Shown: positions 1,181-11,789 of the stretch, piece after piece
Layout: every line of letters starts with the position of its first letter
How positions within the stretch are numbered: the first letter of the stretch is position 1
Origin: a virus
Strand: one strand, 5' to 3'
Length of the DNA: 21,190 bases
Virus record (IMG/VR): IMGVR_UViG_3300034073_001656
Location: 1 to 21,190 of that record
Made by a program: the position numbers and the translations under genes
Notes under the pieces: generated by a model
What the model saw: only the letters and a program-made list of their open reading frames with translations
Told to the model about the DNA's origin: nothing
Database searches by the model: none

Positions 1181-2802
1181 TAGAATTCATCTCCAAGAGC
1201 AAGACCAAGAGCAAGAACATCATCACCGCCTGGAGTATTACCATAAACCATCCAAGTAGATCCACTGTAGATAAAATCTACTTTAGTTCCTGAGTAATTT
1301 AGAACTAAGTCAACAGAATCACCCATAATTGTATTACCATTTCTTGCGATAACTAATGGGTTTGCACTCCAGTTATCTCCATCCGCGATTGTAATCTGAG
1401 CACCAGCAGAGGCACTTGATGGCAGAGTAATTGTAAAAGATCCACTACTAGTATTCGCTAAAATAGATTCACCTAGATTGGCAGTATGATTTGATGTTTT
1501 GACTAACCATCCACCACCACCAGCAGCGAATGTAATTGTTTTGGCGACACCATCTGTTGCAATGGCTACGTTTGGACCAGCAACAAGAGTGAATGTGTCA
1601 TTATTGTTACTAGCTGTAACTGTATCTTGACCAGCAACCGCGATATTTTTGAAGATGTTTTGTGTAGAACCCTTATCACTATTGGAAATAGTAACTGCAC
1701 CAGAACCATTATAAGAACCACCAGATAAACCACTACCGATTGTTAGAGTTGCTAAATCTTGACCTAGTGAAATTCCTGATATTGTATAATTTGCTAGTTT
1801 AGTTATTGCGATAGCAGCATTTGCATTAATGTCAGCGTTGACAATAGTGCCATCTGCAATCATTGTAGAAGTAACTGTTCCTACATCGTTAGAACCAACA
1901 AGCGTACCAGTAGATGGTAATGATACAGAAGATCCACCAGCAGCAGTTGCTACAGTTAGATTACCTGTGTTAAGTGTAATAGTTCTAGAACCATTATTAA
2001 TACCAGTGCCACCATATGTTGGACTAACAATAGTACCTTGCCAAGTACCAGTTGTGATAGTTCCAACTGTAGTTAGTGATGATGTGATTACATTAGAACC
2101 TAATGTAGTAGCAGATAAAACAGATACGCCATTAATTTCGTATTGTTTACCAACAGCAAGATTGAAATCTTCAGAAGAAGTCCATCCTACAGAAGACCAT
2201 GTAATACTTTTATCTGTAGAACCTTTAAGAGTAATACCACCACCATCAGCAGTTAAATCTGATGGTGAACTTACAGAGCCAAGTTCAATATTTTTATCGT
2301 CAACTGAGATTGTAGTAGAGTTAACTGTAGTAACAGAACCATTGACAGTTAAATCACCAGAAACAACTAAATCTTTATTTACTGTTACAGTTCCACCATT
2401 TGCAGAACCAAGATTAATATTAGTTGTAGAACCTGTATCACCACCAGTACCGATATTAACAGTTTTTGTTAGACCGCTACCAGTTGCAGCAATGGCAATG
2501 TTTATTGTATGACTATCTGAAGCACTATTATTACCGATATTTAATGTAGTAGGGGTAGAAAACGCAGTAAATGTAGTGCTAGAAGAATCTATACTAGTAG
2601 TAATAGATGGTGATACTAGGGTTTTATTTGTTAGTGTTTCAGTCCCTGCTAATGTAGCAAGAGTTCCACTGGCAGTTGGCAATAATAAAGTAGCACCATT
2701 ATTATAAATGCTACTGCTTGTTAAATCTAGATTATCACCAGCTGCAAGTTCCCTGACAGTTTCAGAAACTGCATCTATAATTAACGGAAAACGATTAGCC
2801 AT
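1180..2802 (-). CDS. Tail fibre-like structural protein (540 aa)
   Basis: A Ser/Thr/Gly-rich virion protein of the fibre type. It starts MANRFPLIIDAVSETVRELA, a typical short N-terminal attachment motif in marine myovirus fibres (inference from style). Residues 50-65 carry the recurring fibre phrase AGTETLTNKTLVSPSI, also present twice, in variant form, in the next upstream gene. Residues 140-160 have short beta repeats (VSGDLTVNGSV), and residues 240-265 the phrase TVGTITTGTWQGTIVSPTYGG, which also recurs in other fibre genes here. Residues 430-521 resemble a distal beta domain seen in phage fibres: GESILANTSSGSFTITLPSS, then a D-x-W, ending in STWMVYGN. The C-terminus is acidic and hydrophobic (ALGLALGDEF). 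Its start overlaps the previous stop as TAATG at 2804-2800, and its stop overlaps the gp13 start. Its place just before gp13 is that of T4 wac, but I see no fibritin similarity. Confidence 0.75.
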   Translation of the reverse strand: MANRFPLIIDAVSETVRELAAGDNLDLTSSSIYNNGATLLLPTASGTLATLAGTETLTNKTLVSPSITTSIDSSSTTFTAFSTPTTLNIGNNSASDSHTINIAIAATGSGLTKTVNIGTGGDTGSTTNINLGSANGGTVTVNKDLVVSGDLTVNGSVTTVNSTTISVDDKNIELGSVSSPSDLTADGGGITLKGSTDKSITWSSVGWTSSEDFNLAVGKQYEINGVSVLSATTLGSNVITSSLTTVGTITTGTWQGTIVSPTYGGTGINNGSRTITLNTGNLTVATAAGGSSVSLPSTGTLVGSNDVGTVTSTMIADGTIVNADINANAAIAITKLANYTISGISLGQDLATLTIGSGLSGGSYNGSGAVTISNSDKGSTQNIFKNIAVAGQDTVTASNNNDTFTLVAGPNVAIATDGVAKTITFAAGGGGWLVKTSNHTANLGESILANTSSGSFTITLPSSASAGAQITIADGDNWSANPLVIARNGNTIMGDSVDLVLNYSGTKVDFIYSGSTWMVYGNTPGGDDVLALGLALGDEF

Positions 2803-4895
2803 TAAACTAGTACCCCTATATTTTGTGTTCTACCATAGACTGTTAATTGCCCACTAGAAATAACAATTGGAGTGGCACTACTTGGTGCAACATCACCTCT
2901 TTTATATACTAAAAATTTAGATGATGACGCTGTGCTCTCAATAGTAATTGTGTTTGCATCAGTCCTTGTAATATTTATGTTTGATCCTGCAGTAAGTTTT
3001 ACATCATCTACTGAAGAATCTGATCCAGAAATTCTAATCTTAGCGCCAGAAACATCTGTTTCTGCTGAAATAGAATAAGTTGTATTTACTACACTTTCTG
3101 TTTCAGTTGTATAACCTGTTACATGACCAAAAGTGTCAAATGTAAGACTATTGACATATGTTCTATTTGATGCAGATAAGTTTGAAACTGAAGATGTATC
3201 AGCATGAGATATAGTAAATGATGTACCTTCTCCTGCACTTCCTGATACTATTATACCACTACCAGCAACCACTTCAGAAGCATAATTTCCAATAGTATCT
3301 GTTCCAAGAGCAACAGAGTTTGCAGCAATCGTTGCATTTAATGTTCCGTTTGCTAAGTCTGTTAATGTAACTGAACCAGTTAAATCACCAGCCAACGTAA
3401 TTGTTGGAGACACACCAGTGATTGTTGGAGAAACAAGAGTTTTATTTGTTAAACTCTGTGTTCCGCTTGTAGTGACTAATGGAACTAAATTGTGAGTTAA
3501 TGTTCCAGAAATAATATTATAATTACCATTGCCTTGTGTTCCGTCACCACCACTTGCAACAACTCTTACATCAAAAGTTGTTGATACATTTCCAGTTTTA
3601 TAATCTATAACAGCATTTGAACCAACAGATGAATATAAAATTGATCCAGAAATTGTTGGAGAAGATAATGTTTTATTTGTTAGTGTTTCAGTTCCTGATA
3701 GTGTAGAATATCCAACATCATTTGTAAATTCAGATAATGCTGTTGGAAATACTACAGAGTTCCCTGTAACATTTGTAATTCTACCATACTGATCAACAGT
3801 GATTGTAGGTATTGAAGTACCAGAACCATAAGAACCAGCAGTGACACCAGAAGAAGATAATGATAAAGTTCTATTTGCAGAAAGATCACCACCACCAGAA
3901 AGTCCTACGCCTGCAGAAATAATAGTTGATTTATCTGCTTTTGTAGATAGATTTGTAGTTACAGTAGAAGCAAAATTAGAATCGTCTCCTAAAGCAGCAG
4001 CTAATTCATTTAATGTATCAAGCGCTGCAGGAGCAGTATCAATTAGATTAGATATTGCAGTATTGACATAAGATGTACTTGCAGCATTTGCTATATCAGT
4101 TACATCTAAATTATCAATTCTTGTACCAAGAGCAGATTCAGCACTTGTTGCTCTAGAAATTTCTGCATTTAAATTATTTGTTAATGTTGTATCAGCAGCT
4201 GCACGAGTTGTTGCTTCCGTATTGATATTATTTTGTAAAGTAGTATCTGCTGATGTTCTAGCGATAGTTTCATTTGAAATATCTGATGCAACTGATGTAA
4301 TACTATTTGTTAGTGTTTGTCCAGAAATTGTTACTGTATTTCCAGATACAGATGTTGCGATACCACTAGCACCAACAAATGATAGTGTGTCTGATAGTAA
4401 ATCAATTGTATCAGAACCAGCGTCACCATCAATAGAAAGATTTGTTGCAACAGAAGCAGTAGTAACTGCAGTTATCTGACCTTGTGCATTGATTGTTAAT
4501 ACAGGGATAGCAGTTGCTGAACCATAAGATCCAGCAGTAACTCCAGTATTAGAAAGCGAAATTGTTACTGCCGAAGAACCATCATACAAAGAACCAGATA
4601 AACCAGTTCCGATGGTAAGAGCGTTTGATGCTGTTGCAGTAATTGTAGTAGAACCACCCAATGAAACAGATTGTCCATTGATAGTTACAGAACTATTTGC
4701 TAGTTTGGAATTAGATATTGATGCGTTTGTTAGGTTTGATAAATCTTTTCTAAGGATTTCAAAACCACCAGCAGTAGAACCATCATGAAGTCTTAATGCA
4801 TAGTTAGTTGTGTCAACTGTAAGTTCAGCATTAGCACCAGTAAATGTATCGTGCTGTAAAGCTGTACCTCTTCTAAGTTGAATCTGAATTGACAT
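2802..4895 (-). CDS. Tail fibre-like protein with Mtd-type N-terminal domain (697 aa)
   Basis: A long fibre protein. Residues 1-48 (MSIQIQLRRGTALQHDTFTG, then AELTVDTTNYALRLHDGST) match the N-terminal domain type of the Bordetella phage major tropism determinant, which attaches receptor-binding proteins to the tail. Residues 118-190 are a VTAGSYGS module shared with the 797-aa fibre. Residues 204-265 contain heptad-like repeats (ETIARTSADTTLQNNINTEA) that look like a trimeric coiled coil. Residues 280-322 carry the phage fibre phrase LDTLNELAAALGDD. A second VTAGSYGS copy starts at 350, with GTETLTNKTLSSPTI at 401 and SLTNKTLVSPTITG at 481. The C-terminus ends in QLTVYGRTQNIGVLV. The ribosome binding site AAGGA precedes the ATG at 4895-4893. 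The receptor is unknown. Confidence 0.78.
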   Translation of the reverse strand: MSIQIQLRRGTALQHDTFTGANAELTVDTTNYALRLHDGSTAGGFEILRKDLSNLTNASISNSKLANSSVTINGQSVSLGGSTTITATASNALTIGTGLSGSLYDGSSAVTISLSNTGVTAGSYGSATAIPVLTINAQGQITAVTTASVATNLSIDGDAGSDTIDLLSDTLSFVGASGIATSVSGNTVTISGQTLTNSITSVASDISNETIARTSADTTLQNNINTEATTRAAADTTLTNNLNAEISRATSAESALGTRIDNLDVTDIANAASTSYVNTAISNLIDTAPAALDTLNELAAALGDDSNFASTVTTNLSTKADKSTIISAGVGLSGGGDLSANRTLSLSSSGVTAGSYGSGTSIPTITVDQYGRITNVTGNSVVFPTALSEFTNDVGYSTLSGTETLTNKTLSSPTISGSILYSSVGSNAVIDYKTGNVSTTFDVRVVASGGDGTQGNGNYNIISGTLTHNLVPLVTTSGTQSLTNKTLVSPTITGVSPTITLAGDLTGSVTLTDLANGTLNATIAANSVALGTDTIGNYASEVVAGSGIIVSGSAGEGTSFTISHADTSSVSNLSASNRTYVNSLTFDTFGHVTGYTTETESVVNTTYSISAETDVSGAKIRISGSDSSVDDVKLTAGSNINITRTDANTITIESTASSSKFLVYKRGDVAPSSATPIVISSGQLTVYGRTQNIGVLV

Positions 4896-7883: not shown

Positions 7884-8219
7884 TTAAATCTGTGTAATCT
7901 GAGGTGTTACTGTAACAATACCTTCAACAACCCTAGTCTTTGTACCGATTGGTGAAGTTATTTCGACATCATATAACCATCTTCCTGCTGGAATGGCTTC
8001 AGATTGAGATGGTGTTAATTGTAATCGTATCTTACCATTCGCAGCATCATGAACAGATGCATTAAATGAATAAGATGTACTAGATTGATATGATTTTCTT
8101 AATTGAGAGGCGACAGTGTACCCAGTCAAATCTAATGGAGACCCATTAGATGCAGTGACTGAGATAATGTTGCTGTATGTTGATCCAGCGTCCACATATA
8201 GATTGCCGATGGTTGCCAT
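7884..8219 (-). CDS. BppU-like baseplate/fibre connector protein (111 aa)
   Basis: A single beta-sandwich-like domain. It starts MATIGNLYVDAGSTYSNIIS, then GSPLDLTGYTVASQLRKS, a D-A-A-N-G-K-I-R-L-Q-L-T run, and ends with RWLYDVEITSPIGTKTRVVE followed by GIVTVTPQITQI. This order (DLTGYT, G-K-I-x-L-x-L, YDVE, V-x-G-x-V-T-V-T-P) is that of the N-terminal domain of BppU-type baseplate upper proteins, which link receptor-binding parts to the baseplate. It is the first gene after a clean TATAAATA late promoter, with ribosome binding site TAGGAA before the ATG at 8219-8217. A joining role between baseplate and the 797-aa fibre is an inference. Confidence 0.72.
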   Translation of the reverse strand: MATIGNLYVDAGSTYSNIISVTASNGSPLDLTGYTVASQLRKSYQSSTSYSFNASVHDAANGKIRLQLTPSQSEAIPAGRWLYDVEITSPIGTKTRVVEGIVTVTPQITQI

Positions 8220-8220
8220 T

Positions 8221-8263
8221 CTGGAATTTCCTAATCTTTATACTTCTTTATTTATAATTCCAG
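8221..8263. repeat. Inverted repeat enclosing a late promoter and ribosome binding site
   Basis: CTGGAATT at 8221-8228 is the exact reverse complement of AATTCCAG at 8256-8263. The arms enclose 27 bases. On the minus strand the spacer holds all but one end base of the TATAAATA box and the TAGGA ribosome binding site, and the second arm ends 1 base before the ATG of the 111-aa gene. A transcript reading through from upstream carries both arms. A transcript started at the late promoter carries only the second. Confidence 0.6.
8249..8256 (-). promoter_or_regulatory. T4-type late promoter before the 111-aa gene
   Basis: An exact TATAAATA on the minus strand, the box read by the phage late sigma factor (gp55 in T4). 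It lies 30 bases before the ATG at 8219 in the only intergenic gap of about 100 bases in the window, directly after a terminator. Spacing equals that of the box at 11789-11782. Confidence 0.85.
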
Positions 8264-8275
8264 AGAATGCAAATA

Positions 8276-8301
8276 AAAATCCCTCCATAAGGAGGGATTT
8301 T
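8276..8301 (-). terminator. Strong intrinsic terminator after the 85-aa gene
   Basis: A perfect 11-bp stem (AAAATCCCTCC / GGAGGGATTTT) with a 4-base loop. On the minus strand it ends in GGAGGGATTTTTATTT, a G+C-rich stem followed by U residues. It sits 19 bases after the stop of the 85-aa gene and ends the adhesin cassette. The A-rich left side would allow some activity in the other direction too, but no plus-strand gene is seen. Confidence 0.88.
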
Positions 8302-8320: not shown

Positions 8321-8578
8321 TTATTCTGGTGCTTCTTCAGATTCTTCTTGTTCTGGCTGAACCAAATCAATTCTACCCTGAGAAACGCTCCAAACATAAT
8401 TAAAATCTGGATTAGAAAAAGTTCCATCAGCATATTCCCAACCAATACCGATTGGTGCATCTGCGATTTCTACAAATTCAATACCTTGTTGATTAATGTC
8501 AGTTTGTGCTGGAACATTATCGTAGACTGCTACGTTTTCGATAATACCATTTCTAATAATTGCTACATTGTGTGTCAT
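8321..8578 (-). CDS. Tail fibre assembly-like small protein (85 aa)
   Basis: It starts MTHNVAIIRNGIIENVAVYD and contains IADAPIGIGWEYADGTFSNP, close in form to the 'v.iGw.Ydg..F..P' segment of Tfa/gp38-type tail fibre assembly proteins. The last 12 or so residues are very acidic (PEQEESEEAPE). It lies directly after three glycine-rich adhesin genes, the place where phages often keep the chaperone or assembly factor for the receptor-binding tip. It has a strong ribosome binding site (AAGGGGAT) in the 14-base gap before its ATG, and a terminator follows. The assembly role is an inference from this short motif and position; it could instead be a small structural subunit. Confidence 0.65.
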   Translation of the reverse strand: MTHNVAIIRNGIIENVAVYDNVPAQTDINQQGIEFVEIADAPIGIGWEYADGTFSNPDFNYVWSVSQGRIDLVQPEQEESEEAPE

Positions 8579-8592
8579 TTAAAATCCCCTTT

Positions 8593-9330
8593 TTACCAAA
8601 GTCCGTAAATTTCTTCAACGATAACAGAACCAGTTGAACCTGATTGTCCATGTCCACCACCAGATCCATAAATTCCTTTACCTGGTTGGCTAGATCCGCC
8701 ACCACCTAGTCCACCACCAGCTCCAAAATATTGAAAAGATCCTGATCCTGGGTTGTATCCACTTTCACCTTGTGGAACCCAATATGGTCCATAAGAAAAT
8801 TGTGTTCCAGAAATACCGCCTTGTCCACCATAAACAATTGCTCCAGAACCTGAACCAGAACCACCAGATCCTCCAGAATTCGTTCCGCCTGCACCACCAC
8901 CAGTAGCTGCAACGTAAGAACCAAATGAAGTAGTGCCACCGCCAGCTCCAGAACCACCACCTGCGCCAACAGTAACTGTAACAGTAGTACTAATTTCTGA
9001 AATATCTAAAACACGAACAGCTATACCTCCAGCGCCTCCGCCAGAGTTTGATCCGCCACCACCGCCACCACCGTAGCAAGTAACACGTAAACGCTTTAGA
9101 TCATTCTTACCAGTTGTAGAATATGTTGATGCGCCAGCAGTTGTAAAATATTCTGTACGAGTCCAACCGCGCGGACGATCTTCTCTAGCAGATGGAATAC
9201 CACCAGCAGTAACACCATCATGAACGATTGTTACGTCTTTATCTGTATCTACTGTGACTTCTCCTAACGCTCCTGTAAATGCAGCGTGCTGAGCAGTAGT
9301 ACCTCTTCTTAATTTAACTTGTTTTGACAT
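8593..9330 (-). CDS. Glycine-rich adhesin, paralogue 3 (245 aa)
   Basis: A candidate receptor-binding protein. Residues 1-48 (MSKQVKLRRGTTAQHAAFTG, then GEVTVDTDKDVTIVHDGVTA) are an Mtd-type N-terminal docking domain. Residues 51-82 are a linker strand region (DRPRGWTRTEYFTTAG, then LKRLRVTCYG). From residue 87 the chain is dominated by glycine runs, with a conserved VTVTVGAGGGSGAGGGTTSF strand unit at 116-136 and a differing middle (GPYWVPQGESGYNP) at 150-215. It ends GSVIVEEIYGLW. Glycine-rich tips that pack as polyglycine helices with variable loops are known from the gp38 adhesin of Salmonella phage S16; that this protein folds likewise is an inference. It is last of three tandem copies, with AAGGAATT as ribosome binding site in an 11-base gap. 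Confidence 0.8.
   Translation of the reverse strand: MSKQVKLRRGTTAQHAAFTGALGEVTVDTDKDVTIVHDGVTAGGIPSAREDRPRGWTRTEYFTTAGASTYSTTGKNDLKRLRVTCYGGGGGGGSNSGGGAGGIAVRVLDISEISTTVTVTVGAGGGSGAGGGTTSFGSYVAATGGGAGGTNSGGSGGSGSGSGAIVYGGQGGISGTQFSYGPYWVPQGESGYNPGSGSFQYFGAGGGLGGGGSSQPGKGIYGSGGGHGQSGSTGSVIVEEIYGLW
8921..8961. repeat. 41-base exact repeat shared by adhesin paralogues 3 and 2
   Basis: The bases at 8921-8961 are identical to 9658-9698. They code for the conserved GSGAGGGTTSFG region. Flanking sequence differs even where the protein is alike, so the identity is higher than its surroundings. Confidence 0.85.
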
Positions 9331-9341
9331 AGTGTAATTCC

Positions 9342-10061
9342 TTATACAAATCCGTAGAATTCTTCAACAATAACAGAACCTTGTGCGCCACCTGCTCCTG
9401 ATCCACCACCACCACCACGAATACCATTACCACCTGTACCTGATCGACCACCACCGAAACCGCCACCAACCATACGACCAGCAGAATATGATGAGTTACG
9501 TGCTGGATAGTTAGAAGATTCTCCTTGACAAGCACCTTGTCCACCTAGTATATATACAGGGTTTCCAGAAACGCTACCGCCACCGCCACCGCCTGATCCA
9601 CCAGATCCACCACTATAACCAGAACCAGCACCGCCACCAGTTGCATTAATGTATGTACCAAATGAAGTAGTGCCACCGCCAGCTCCAGAACCACCACCAG
9701 AACCAATAGTAACTGCTACGTTTGTAGTTAAATCAGTAACTTCTAACACAACTTGTGTAATACCACCACCACCGCCACCAGATTGTCCACCACCACCACC
9801 GCCACCACCGTAGCAAGTAACACGAATACGTTTTAAATCTGTTTTTCCTGACAGTGTCCATGTTCCACTAGAAGTAAAAATTTCCATTCTAGTCATACCA
9901 CGTGGACGATCTTTTCTTAATAGAGGAATACCACCTGCTGTAGTTCCATTATGAACTACAGGAACATCTTTATCTGTATCTACAGTTACTTCGCCTTCAA
10001 CGCCAGTAAATGTTGCGTGTTGCGCAGTAGTACCTCTTCTAAATCTAACTTGTTTTGACAT
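9342..10061 (-). CDS. Glycine-rich adhesin, paralogue 2 (239 aa)
   Basis: Same plan as its two neighbours: docking domain at residues 1-48 (MSKQVRFRRGTTAQHATFTG), linker DRPRGMTRMEIFTSSGTWTL, strand TDLKRIRVTCYG, a run of eight glycines at 85-92, the conserved NVAVTIGSGGGSGAGGGTTS unit, and a glycine-rich distal part that ends GSVIVEEFYGFV. The middle differs from the others and contains ILGGQGACQGESSNYPARNS and RMVGGGFGGGRSG. It shares a 41-base identical stretch with paralogue 3 and a 44-base identical start with paralogue 1, so pieces have been exchanged or kept. A GAGGA ribosome binding site lies in the 15-base gap before the ATG. Role as host-binding tip is inferred. Confidence 0.8.
   Translation of the reverse strand: MSKQVRFRRGTTAQHATFTGVEGEVTVDTDKDVPVVHNGTTAGGIPLLRKDRPRGMTRMEIFTSSGTWTLSGKTDLKRIRVTCYGGGGGGGGQSGGGGGGITQVVLEVTDLTTNVAVTIGSGGGSGAGGGTTSFGTYINATGGGAGSGYSGGSGGSGGGGGGSVSGNPVYILGGQGACQGESSNYPARNSSYSAGRMVGGGFGGGRSGTGGNGIRGGGGGSGAGGAQGSVIVEEFYGFV
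10018..10061. repeat. 44-base exact repeat at the starts of adhesin paralogues 2 and 1
   Basis: The bases at 10018-10061 are identical to 10726-10769. They are the first 44 coding bases (MSKQVRFRRGTTAQ). The downstream coding sequence diverges at silent and replacement sites. Such a shared start could serve as a point for recombination between the copies. Confidence 0.85.
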
Positions 10062-10076
10062 TTTAGTTATCCTCTA

Positions 10077-10769
10077 TTATACATATCCATAAATTTCTTC
10101 AATAATAACACCACCAGAACCTCCTGATGCTGTTGGTCCGCCACCAGATCCAAATAATCCTTTTCCAGCCTCACCATATCTGCCACCACCCCAAGGACTA
10201 CCACCACGACCTTGTGCAGAACCTAAACCGACACCAGATACACCTGATTGTGCACCTAAATTGATAACACCAGTTCCTGAAGCAGAACCTGGAATAGATG
10301 ATGCAGACTGGCTTCCTTGGTTACCAGCACCACCACCAGAACAAGAAATAAAGGTACCAAATGAAGTAGTACCACCACTAGCGTTTTGTCCACCGCCAGC
10401 ACCAATAGTAACAGCAACAGTAGCTGGTAGTGAAGTTGCTTCGATAGTTACAATACCTTGTCCACCTTGAGCACCACCAGAGTTATCACCACCACTTCCG
10501 CCACCGCCACCGCCGCCTGATGCTAAAACACGAATGCGTTTTAGATCAGTTTTACCAGAAATACTGTATGTGCCTGATGAAGTAAAATATTCGACTTTAG
10601 TAAATCCACGTGGGCGATCAGCACGAGCAACAGGAATACCACCTGCAACTACGCCATCATGAACGACTAGTGCTTTTTCATCAGTATCTACTGTAATTTC
10701 ACCAGCTGGACCAGTGAATACGCTATGTTGCGCAGTAGTACCTCTTCTAAATCTAACTTGTTTTGACAT
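10077..10769 (-). CDS. Glycine-rich adhesin, paralogue 1 (230 aa)
   Basis: First of the three tandem adhesins to be transcribed. It has docking domain residues 1-48 (MSKQVRFRRGTTAQHSVFTG, GEITVDTDEKALVVHDGVVA), linker DRPRGFTKVEYFTSSGTYSI, strand TDLKRIRVLASGG, a glycine run near 85-91, the VAVTIGAGGGQNASGGTTSF unit, and the C-terminus GGVIIEEIYGYV. It is the most divergent copy: the conserved 'VTCYGG' of the others is VLASGG, and its middle (residues 150-195) is richer in Ser, Ala and Gln than in long glycine runs. AGGGA serves as ribosome binding site. It is probably transcribed from the late promoter at 11789-11782 together with the 320-aa gene. Receptor binding is inferred. Confidence 0.8.
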   Translation of the reverse strand: MSKQVRFRRGTTAQHSVFTGPAGEITVDTDEKALVVHDGVVAGGIPVARADRPRGFTKVEYFTSSGTYSISGKTDLKRIRVLASGGGGGGGSGGDNSGGAQGGQGIVTIEATSLPATVAVTIGAGGGQNASGGTTSFGTFISCSGGGAGNQGSQSASSIPGSASGTGVINLGAQSGVSGVGLGSAQGRGGSPWGGGRYGEAGKGLFGSGGGPTASGGSGGVIIEEIYGYV

Positions 10770-11781: not shown

Positions 11782-11789
11782 TATTTATA
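11782..11789 (-). promoter_or_regulatory. T4-type late promoter overlapping a stop codon, before the 320-aa gene
   Basis: An exact TATAAATA on the minus strand, 30 bases before the ATG at 11752. The TAA inside the box (11787-11785) is the stop codon of the upstream 93-aa gene, whose last sense codon is TTA. Confidence 0.85.

Follow-up and report, generated by a model that had tools for sequence, protein, structure and literature searches.

The virus analysed here is T4-like, aquatic and infects bacteria, and the window, the whole stretch of 21,190 nucleotides taken from IMG/VR record IMGVR_UViG_3300034073_001656, contains three adjacent related genes, A, B and C (Table 1). The reading that we tentatively prefer is that they encode a fixed set of three specialised, co-expressed adhesin subunits belonging to one tail-fibre apparatus. 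Each subunit would combine an Mtd-type N-terminal docking domain with a TNF-like/glycine-rich head like that of Pam3 gp24, whose distal loops would face the host. Duplication would have produced the genes before the divergence of these phages, and they would since have been inherited as a 1:1:1 set together with two neighbours, p320 and p85. Each subunit would have its own set of distal loops, graded from A (short, aromatic-poor) to C (long, aromatic-rich). A virion may thus display all three specialised tips together, each most likely a homotrimer seated on a common mount, and short gene-conversion tracts would hold the framework alike while the tips remain unmixed.

Table 1. Positions of the array, its parts and its surroundings in the window
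Feature	Coordinates	Strand	Remarks
T4-type late-promoter-like site TATAAATA, before p320	11782..11789	(-)	
p320, 320 aa	10790..11752	(-)	always directly upstream of A; no clear family match
Gene A, 230 aa	10077..10769	(-)	Mtd_N domain and TNF-like/glycine-rich head; distal stretch short, aromatic-poor
Docking region of A, residues 1-55	10605..10769	(-)	Mtd_N match
44-base exact repeat, copy in A	10726..10769	(-)	gene start
Equivalent in A of the B distal stretch	about 10185-10325	(-)	
Gene B, 239 aa	9342..10061	(-)	Mtd_N domain and glycine-rich head; fold predicted by alignment with A and C
Docking region of B, residues 1-55	9897..10061	(-)	Mtd_N match
44-base exact repeat, copy in B	10018..10061	(-)	gene start
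42-base exact repeat, copy in B	9657..9698	(-)	glycine run and TTSFG unit
Position-specific distal stretch of B, residues 147-205	9447..9623	(-)	
Gene C, 245 aa	8593..9330	(-)	Mtd_N domain and TNF-like/glycine-rich head; distal stretch long, aromatic-rich
Docking region of C, residues 1-55	9166..9330	(-)	Mtd_N match
42-base exact repeat, copy in C	8920..8961	(-)	
Equivalent in C of the B distal stretch	about 8695-8883	(-)	
p85, small conserved protein	8321..8578	(-)	directly downstream of C
Terminator-like hairpin, 11 pairs	8276..8301	(-)	after p85
TATAAATA before the next gene (111 aa)	8249..8256	(-)	

Domains and internal repeats

The coordinates and the three open reading frames of the original prediction are correct, with gaps of 15 bases between A and B and 11 bases between B and C. 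All three products match Pfam Mtd_N (PF18454) above the curated cut-off (E 1.7e-14 to 3.2e-13), and the family profile matches the solved structures of Bordetella phage Mtd in the PDB over residues 1-54 (E 1.4e-19). In Pfam, a Gly_rich_2 match lies just under its cut-off in B and C, and none is obtained for A. Glycine accounts for 37-43% of the head, measured between residue 84 and the position ten residues short of the C-terminus, compared with 39% in Pam3. The DRPRG linker, TTSFG unit and VIxEExYG C-terminus described at the outset are indeed common to A, B and C. A fourth Mtd_N gene (697 aa), whose body is different and low in glycine, lies elsewhere in the window (2802-4895, minus strand) and occupies the matching relative place in L001-L004.

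Protein identity among A, B and C in this genome is 73-78% for residues 1-55, 54-66% for residues 56-146, 22-33% for residues 147-205 and 53-56% from residue 206 to the end. The middles are therefore as different as had been claimed, but to call the ends near-identical was an overstatement. The idea of a single type of docking domain is broadly right, with the qualification that a few residues of the domain mark position A, B or C.

The longest exact repeat shared by A and B measures 44 bases, as first reported, and lies at the gene starts; that shared by B and C surrounds the TTSFG unit and is 42 bases long, not 41. When synonymous codons were shuffled within each gene in 200 trials, the longest repeat averaged 18 bases and reached at most 35, and no trial (0/200) attained 44 or 42. 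Chance and codon bias are thereby ruled out as the source of these repeats, whereas the longest A/C repeat, 17 bases, is ordinary against the same null.

Predicted fold of A and C

Single-chain AlphaFold2 models of C and A were built from family alignments. The glycine-rich part is confidently predicted in both, with most ten-residue blocks from about residue 60 above pLDDT 80, and the Mtd_N part is of low confidence (pLDDT below 50). Both models match Pam3 gp24 (PDB 7ypx, 7yfw), C with Z 18.7 and rmsd 3.0 over 160 residues, A with Z 19.1 and rmsd 2.7 over 165 residues. Further matches are to chain Q of the Bxb1 tail tip (9d93; Z about 15) and to the glycine-rich domains of ALK/LTK (Z about 9). 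Syn9 gp38 took third rank in the viral structure search, and S16 gp38 is not among the fold matches listed by the structure search.

In these models A and C have a common TNF-like/glycine-rich fold, and residues 55 to the end of both are predicted to be of this type and not a C-type-lectin variable domain. Structure prediction had been proposed as a check for a common fold, and A and C pass it. The suggestion of duplicated receptor-binding tips that share a glycine-rich fold behind an Mtd-type head is probably correct, given the match of both models to Pam3 gp24.

Conservation of the set in relatives

Scans of IMG/VR recovered ten records with a complete array (L001-L008, L096 and L098); the L001 genes are 100% identical to those of the window and may come from the same virus, so L001 stands for the window. 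The arrays of L009, L010, L091 and L101 are truncated at contig ends. Each of the ten complete arrays consists of A, B and C, neither more nor fewer, always in this order, and is flanked immediately upstream by p320 and immediately downstream by p85. Mtd_N genes were examined at 87 loci; every triple array fell within this set, and 71 loci had a single gene of this kind. No relatives were found in bacterial and archaeal genomes. Two other arrangements were seen. L102 (104-1817), outside the set, has a copy, an 87-aa gene and another copy, preceded by the tail of a further copy and followed by a probable oxygenase gene; its two copies are alike over much of the distal stretch. L104 (3816-5459) encodes two tandem 269-aa glycine-rich proteins without Mtd_N that are similar over most of their length.

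A Gp23 major capsid protein (PF07068) is present in four of five array-carrying records (E about 1e-142), and that of one relative is closest to the proteins of Pelagibacter phage HTVC008M and Methylophilales phage Melnitz (68-69%). The gene psbA is absent from the five relatives searched, which thus give no pointer to a photosynthetic host. A VrlC-like gene lies further upstream. Its scan across 80 loci found the array only in the window's own record and the nearest relative among the stretches fetched, so that the VrlC-like gene marks a narrow group; in the closest isolate match to its product, BUCT-ZZ01, the stretch adjoining VrlC contains no family match. At the upstream end of L003, L004 and L007 this structural gene has been exchanged for a distant version (25-30%) and the downstream tail block is retained, which suggests a recombination boundary near it.

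A full-length protein tree of 30 genes, A, B and C from ten genomes, splits into A, B and C groups with support of 95, 82 and 42, respectively, the last being weak, and the internal branching of the three is nearly alike. Separate trees of A and B have 7/7 splits in common; the p320 tree has 6/7 in common with A and likewise with B, and the C tree 5/7 with each of A and B. Trees of individual segments are mostly too short to separate the groups, and in those of the N-domain only A is well supported, B weakly so and C unresolved. The claim that the genes sort by position therefore rests on the full-length sequence and on shared features of the distal stretch.

Those features depend on position in all ten genomes. 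The distal stretch has 40-47 aa with 0-2 F/W/Y in A, 51-60 aa with 2-8 in B and 59-68 aa with 4-9 in C. It is the fastest-changing part of the genes: orthologues are 42-45% identical here and paralogues 28-32%, the latter whether taken from the same genome or from different ones.

The receptor-binding function of A, B and C is a prediction, and they may instead be structural or decoration fibres that happen to have this fold. The lack of long loops in A would suit such a role, as would the placement of the operon inside a larger block of tail genes. We regard it as improbable, since Mtd_N heads a known receptor-binding protein and the rapid change of the distal stretch recalls Pam3 gp24, for which the distal tip has been put forward as the host-binding part (PMC9608196).

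Homogenisation of the framework

If DNA is exchanged within a genome, synonymous codons of paralogues should agree more within genomes than across them. Such agreement was compared in a permutation test, for which p values are nominal and given per segment. Over whole genes every pair shows a within-genome excess of identical synonymous codons (p about 0.001 each). The excess is found for all pairs at residues 116-146 (p 0.003-0.005), for A/B and B/C at residues 1-18, for B/C at residues 76-96 and for A/B at the C-terminus. It is absent from the distal stretch (p 0.24-0.89) and from residues 19-55 (p 0.41-0.74), and these segments serve as an internal control against a genome-wide codon preference; the same comparison argues further against codon bias as the origin of the repeats.

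On this sequence evidence, the exact repeats are best described as homogenisation of the conserved framework (residues 1-18, 116-146 and partly 76-96). Because the excess is confined to framework tracts, conversion appears to keep the framework alike and to spare the tips, the reverse of swapping.

The original prediction took the tips to be interchangeable, with copies that swap segments and so alter host range. Significant exact repeats and within-genome homogenisation of framework tracts could be cited for this, as could the two L102 copies with their similar distal stretches. The ten genomes nevertheless largely contradict it: each has three copies in one unchanging order, the full-length trees sort by position, and the comparison of relatives that had been recommended turned up shuffled middles in none (0/10). 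The distal stretch is no more alike within genomes than across them. Reverse transcriptase (PF00078) was not found in the window record or in five relatives, two of them longer than 160 kb and most records being fragments, and these records hence give no indication of a diversity-generating retroelement. Tip swapping finds no support in the region trees, in the identity of the distal stretch or in the permutation test, and we consider it very improbable.

Neighbouring genes and transcription

The p320 protein is exactly 320 aa long in 12/12 aligned sequences, which are 67-92% identical to the window's copy. A structure database search found no solved relative and no isolate match was found; the window copy has no Pfam match, and two relatives give weak matches to BclA_C (E 0.08). 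It is probable that p320 is a partner of A, B and C, and it may be their mount. The small protein downstream of C, p85, has 71-87 aa across complete arrays, is kept in place and lacks any Pfam match at E values up to 1; its position makes an assembly chaperone possible. The 111-aa gene that follows (window 7884-8219, minus strand) has matches in PHROG families connected with the assembly of L-shaped tail fibres and shows strong conservation beside the array (77-91% in relatives).

The layout is operon-like, within a larger block of tail genes, with intergenic gaps of 9-30 bases and ribosome-binding-like sites. The motif TATAAATA, the T4-type late-promoter core, occurs three times in the window, always on the coding strand and upstream of a 93-aa gene, p320 and the 111-aa gene. 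Three occurrences are not above chance (mean 2.5), and the argument for promoters is therefore one of position and conservation. In each of the nine relatives that have the 111-aa gene, the motif precedes it by 32-38 bases. The site before p320 is missing in L006, L007, L008, L096 and L098, where only the one before the 93-aa gene remains, and in L004 a further site immediately precedes A. A hairpin with a T-run follows p85 in 10/10 relatives.

Assembly and significance

An equally possible reading of the shared docking domain is that A, B and C assemble with each other. Complement C1q, in which three tandem jelly-roll paralogues form one ABC head, offers a precedent, and the array might encode a phage counterpart: an obligate ABC heterotrimer whose asymmetric receptor-binding head is made from three dedicated chains, with long aromatic loops only on C and B and with A as the plainer chain. 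Such a tip fits the strict 1:1:1 set and order and the lasting distal asymmetry, in which A is always short and aromatic-poor, nearly as well as homotrimers do. The nearly congruent A, B and C trees and the similarity of the docking domains, maintained in part by gene conversion at residues 1-18, are also in its favour. The docking domain, however, has few residues that mark position, and Mtd is a homotrimer. The Pam3 gp24 trimer likewise consists of identical chains (PMC9608196), and our literature search found no heterotrimeric phage fibre. Since both related families are homotrimeric, we lean towards three homotrimers and regard the heterotrimer as a possible but rather unlikely arrangement.

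Usually, few parts of a phage genome are replaced as often as its receptor-binding genes. Here three related adhesin genes have been kept as a fixed, ordered set in which each position retains its own tip character, and meanwhile the neighbouring p320 has come to differ at up to a third of its residues. The structure of the set raises a testable question, whether a virion has three separate tips or three chains of one asymmetric tip. It also illustrates that exact repeats among adhesin paralogues can mean homogenisation of a framework, not swapping of tips.

Comparison with known systems

The likeness to Mtd of Bordetella phage BPP-1 is in the N-terminal domain, residues 1-54; neither the C-type-lectin variable domain of Mtd nor its reverse-transcriptase system was found here, most records being fragments. 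The closest counterpart of the head is Pam3 gp24, a trimeric fibre that combines a helical docking domain with a TNF-like domain and with a glycine-rich domain whose distal tip is hypervariable (PMC9608196). The A and C models share with it the TNF-like and glycine-rich head and the variable distal tip. The likeness is limited to the head: gp24 is a single gene with a separate trimeric chaperone, gp25 (PMC9608196), whereas here there are three paralogues, with Mtd_N in place of the helical docking domain.

The gp38 adhesin of Salmonella phage S16, to which the genes were first compared, is related to Pam3 gp24 but has a different middle domain (PMC9608196). The analogy stands as to the kind of protein, a glycine-rich head with distal recognition loops (PMC9608196), but Pam3 gp24 is closer, and S16 gp38 differs in its beta-helix middle domain, its three-layer lattice and its attachment to gp37, which it caps. 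The Bxb1 mycobacteriophage tail-tip protein and ALK/LTK belong to the same fold class and differ in context and function.

A triple array behind an Mtd-type head had been thought undescribed. None was indeed found in isolates, where matches are limited to the Mtd_N part, but tandem glycine-rich proteins occur in a T4-like isolate, Synechococcus phage Syn9, as gp38 and gp39 (PHROG 863 type). These are two genes with another N-terminal domain, and gp39 looks internally duplicated. A near-repeat of its own middle (L204 11150-12328), with frame-shifted-looking stretches between and after, gives the impression that a partial duplication disturbed the frame. In phage CBA120 several receptor-binding proteins, TSP1-4, are likewise carried together, as one branched complex (PMC8825819), although these are enzymatic beta-helix spikes of unrelated fold joined by XD assembly domains. 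With CBA120 TSP1-4 and the Syn9 tandem proteins already known, the three-adhesin set is a variation on a known theme.
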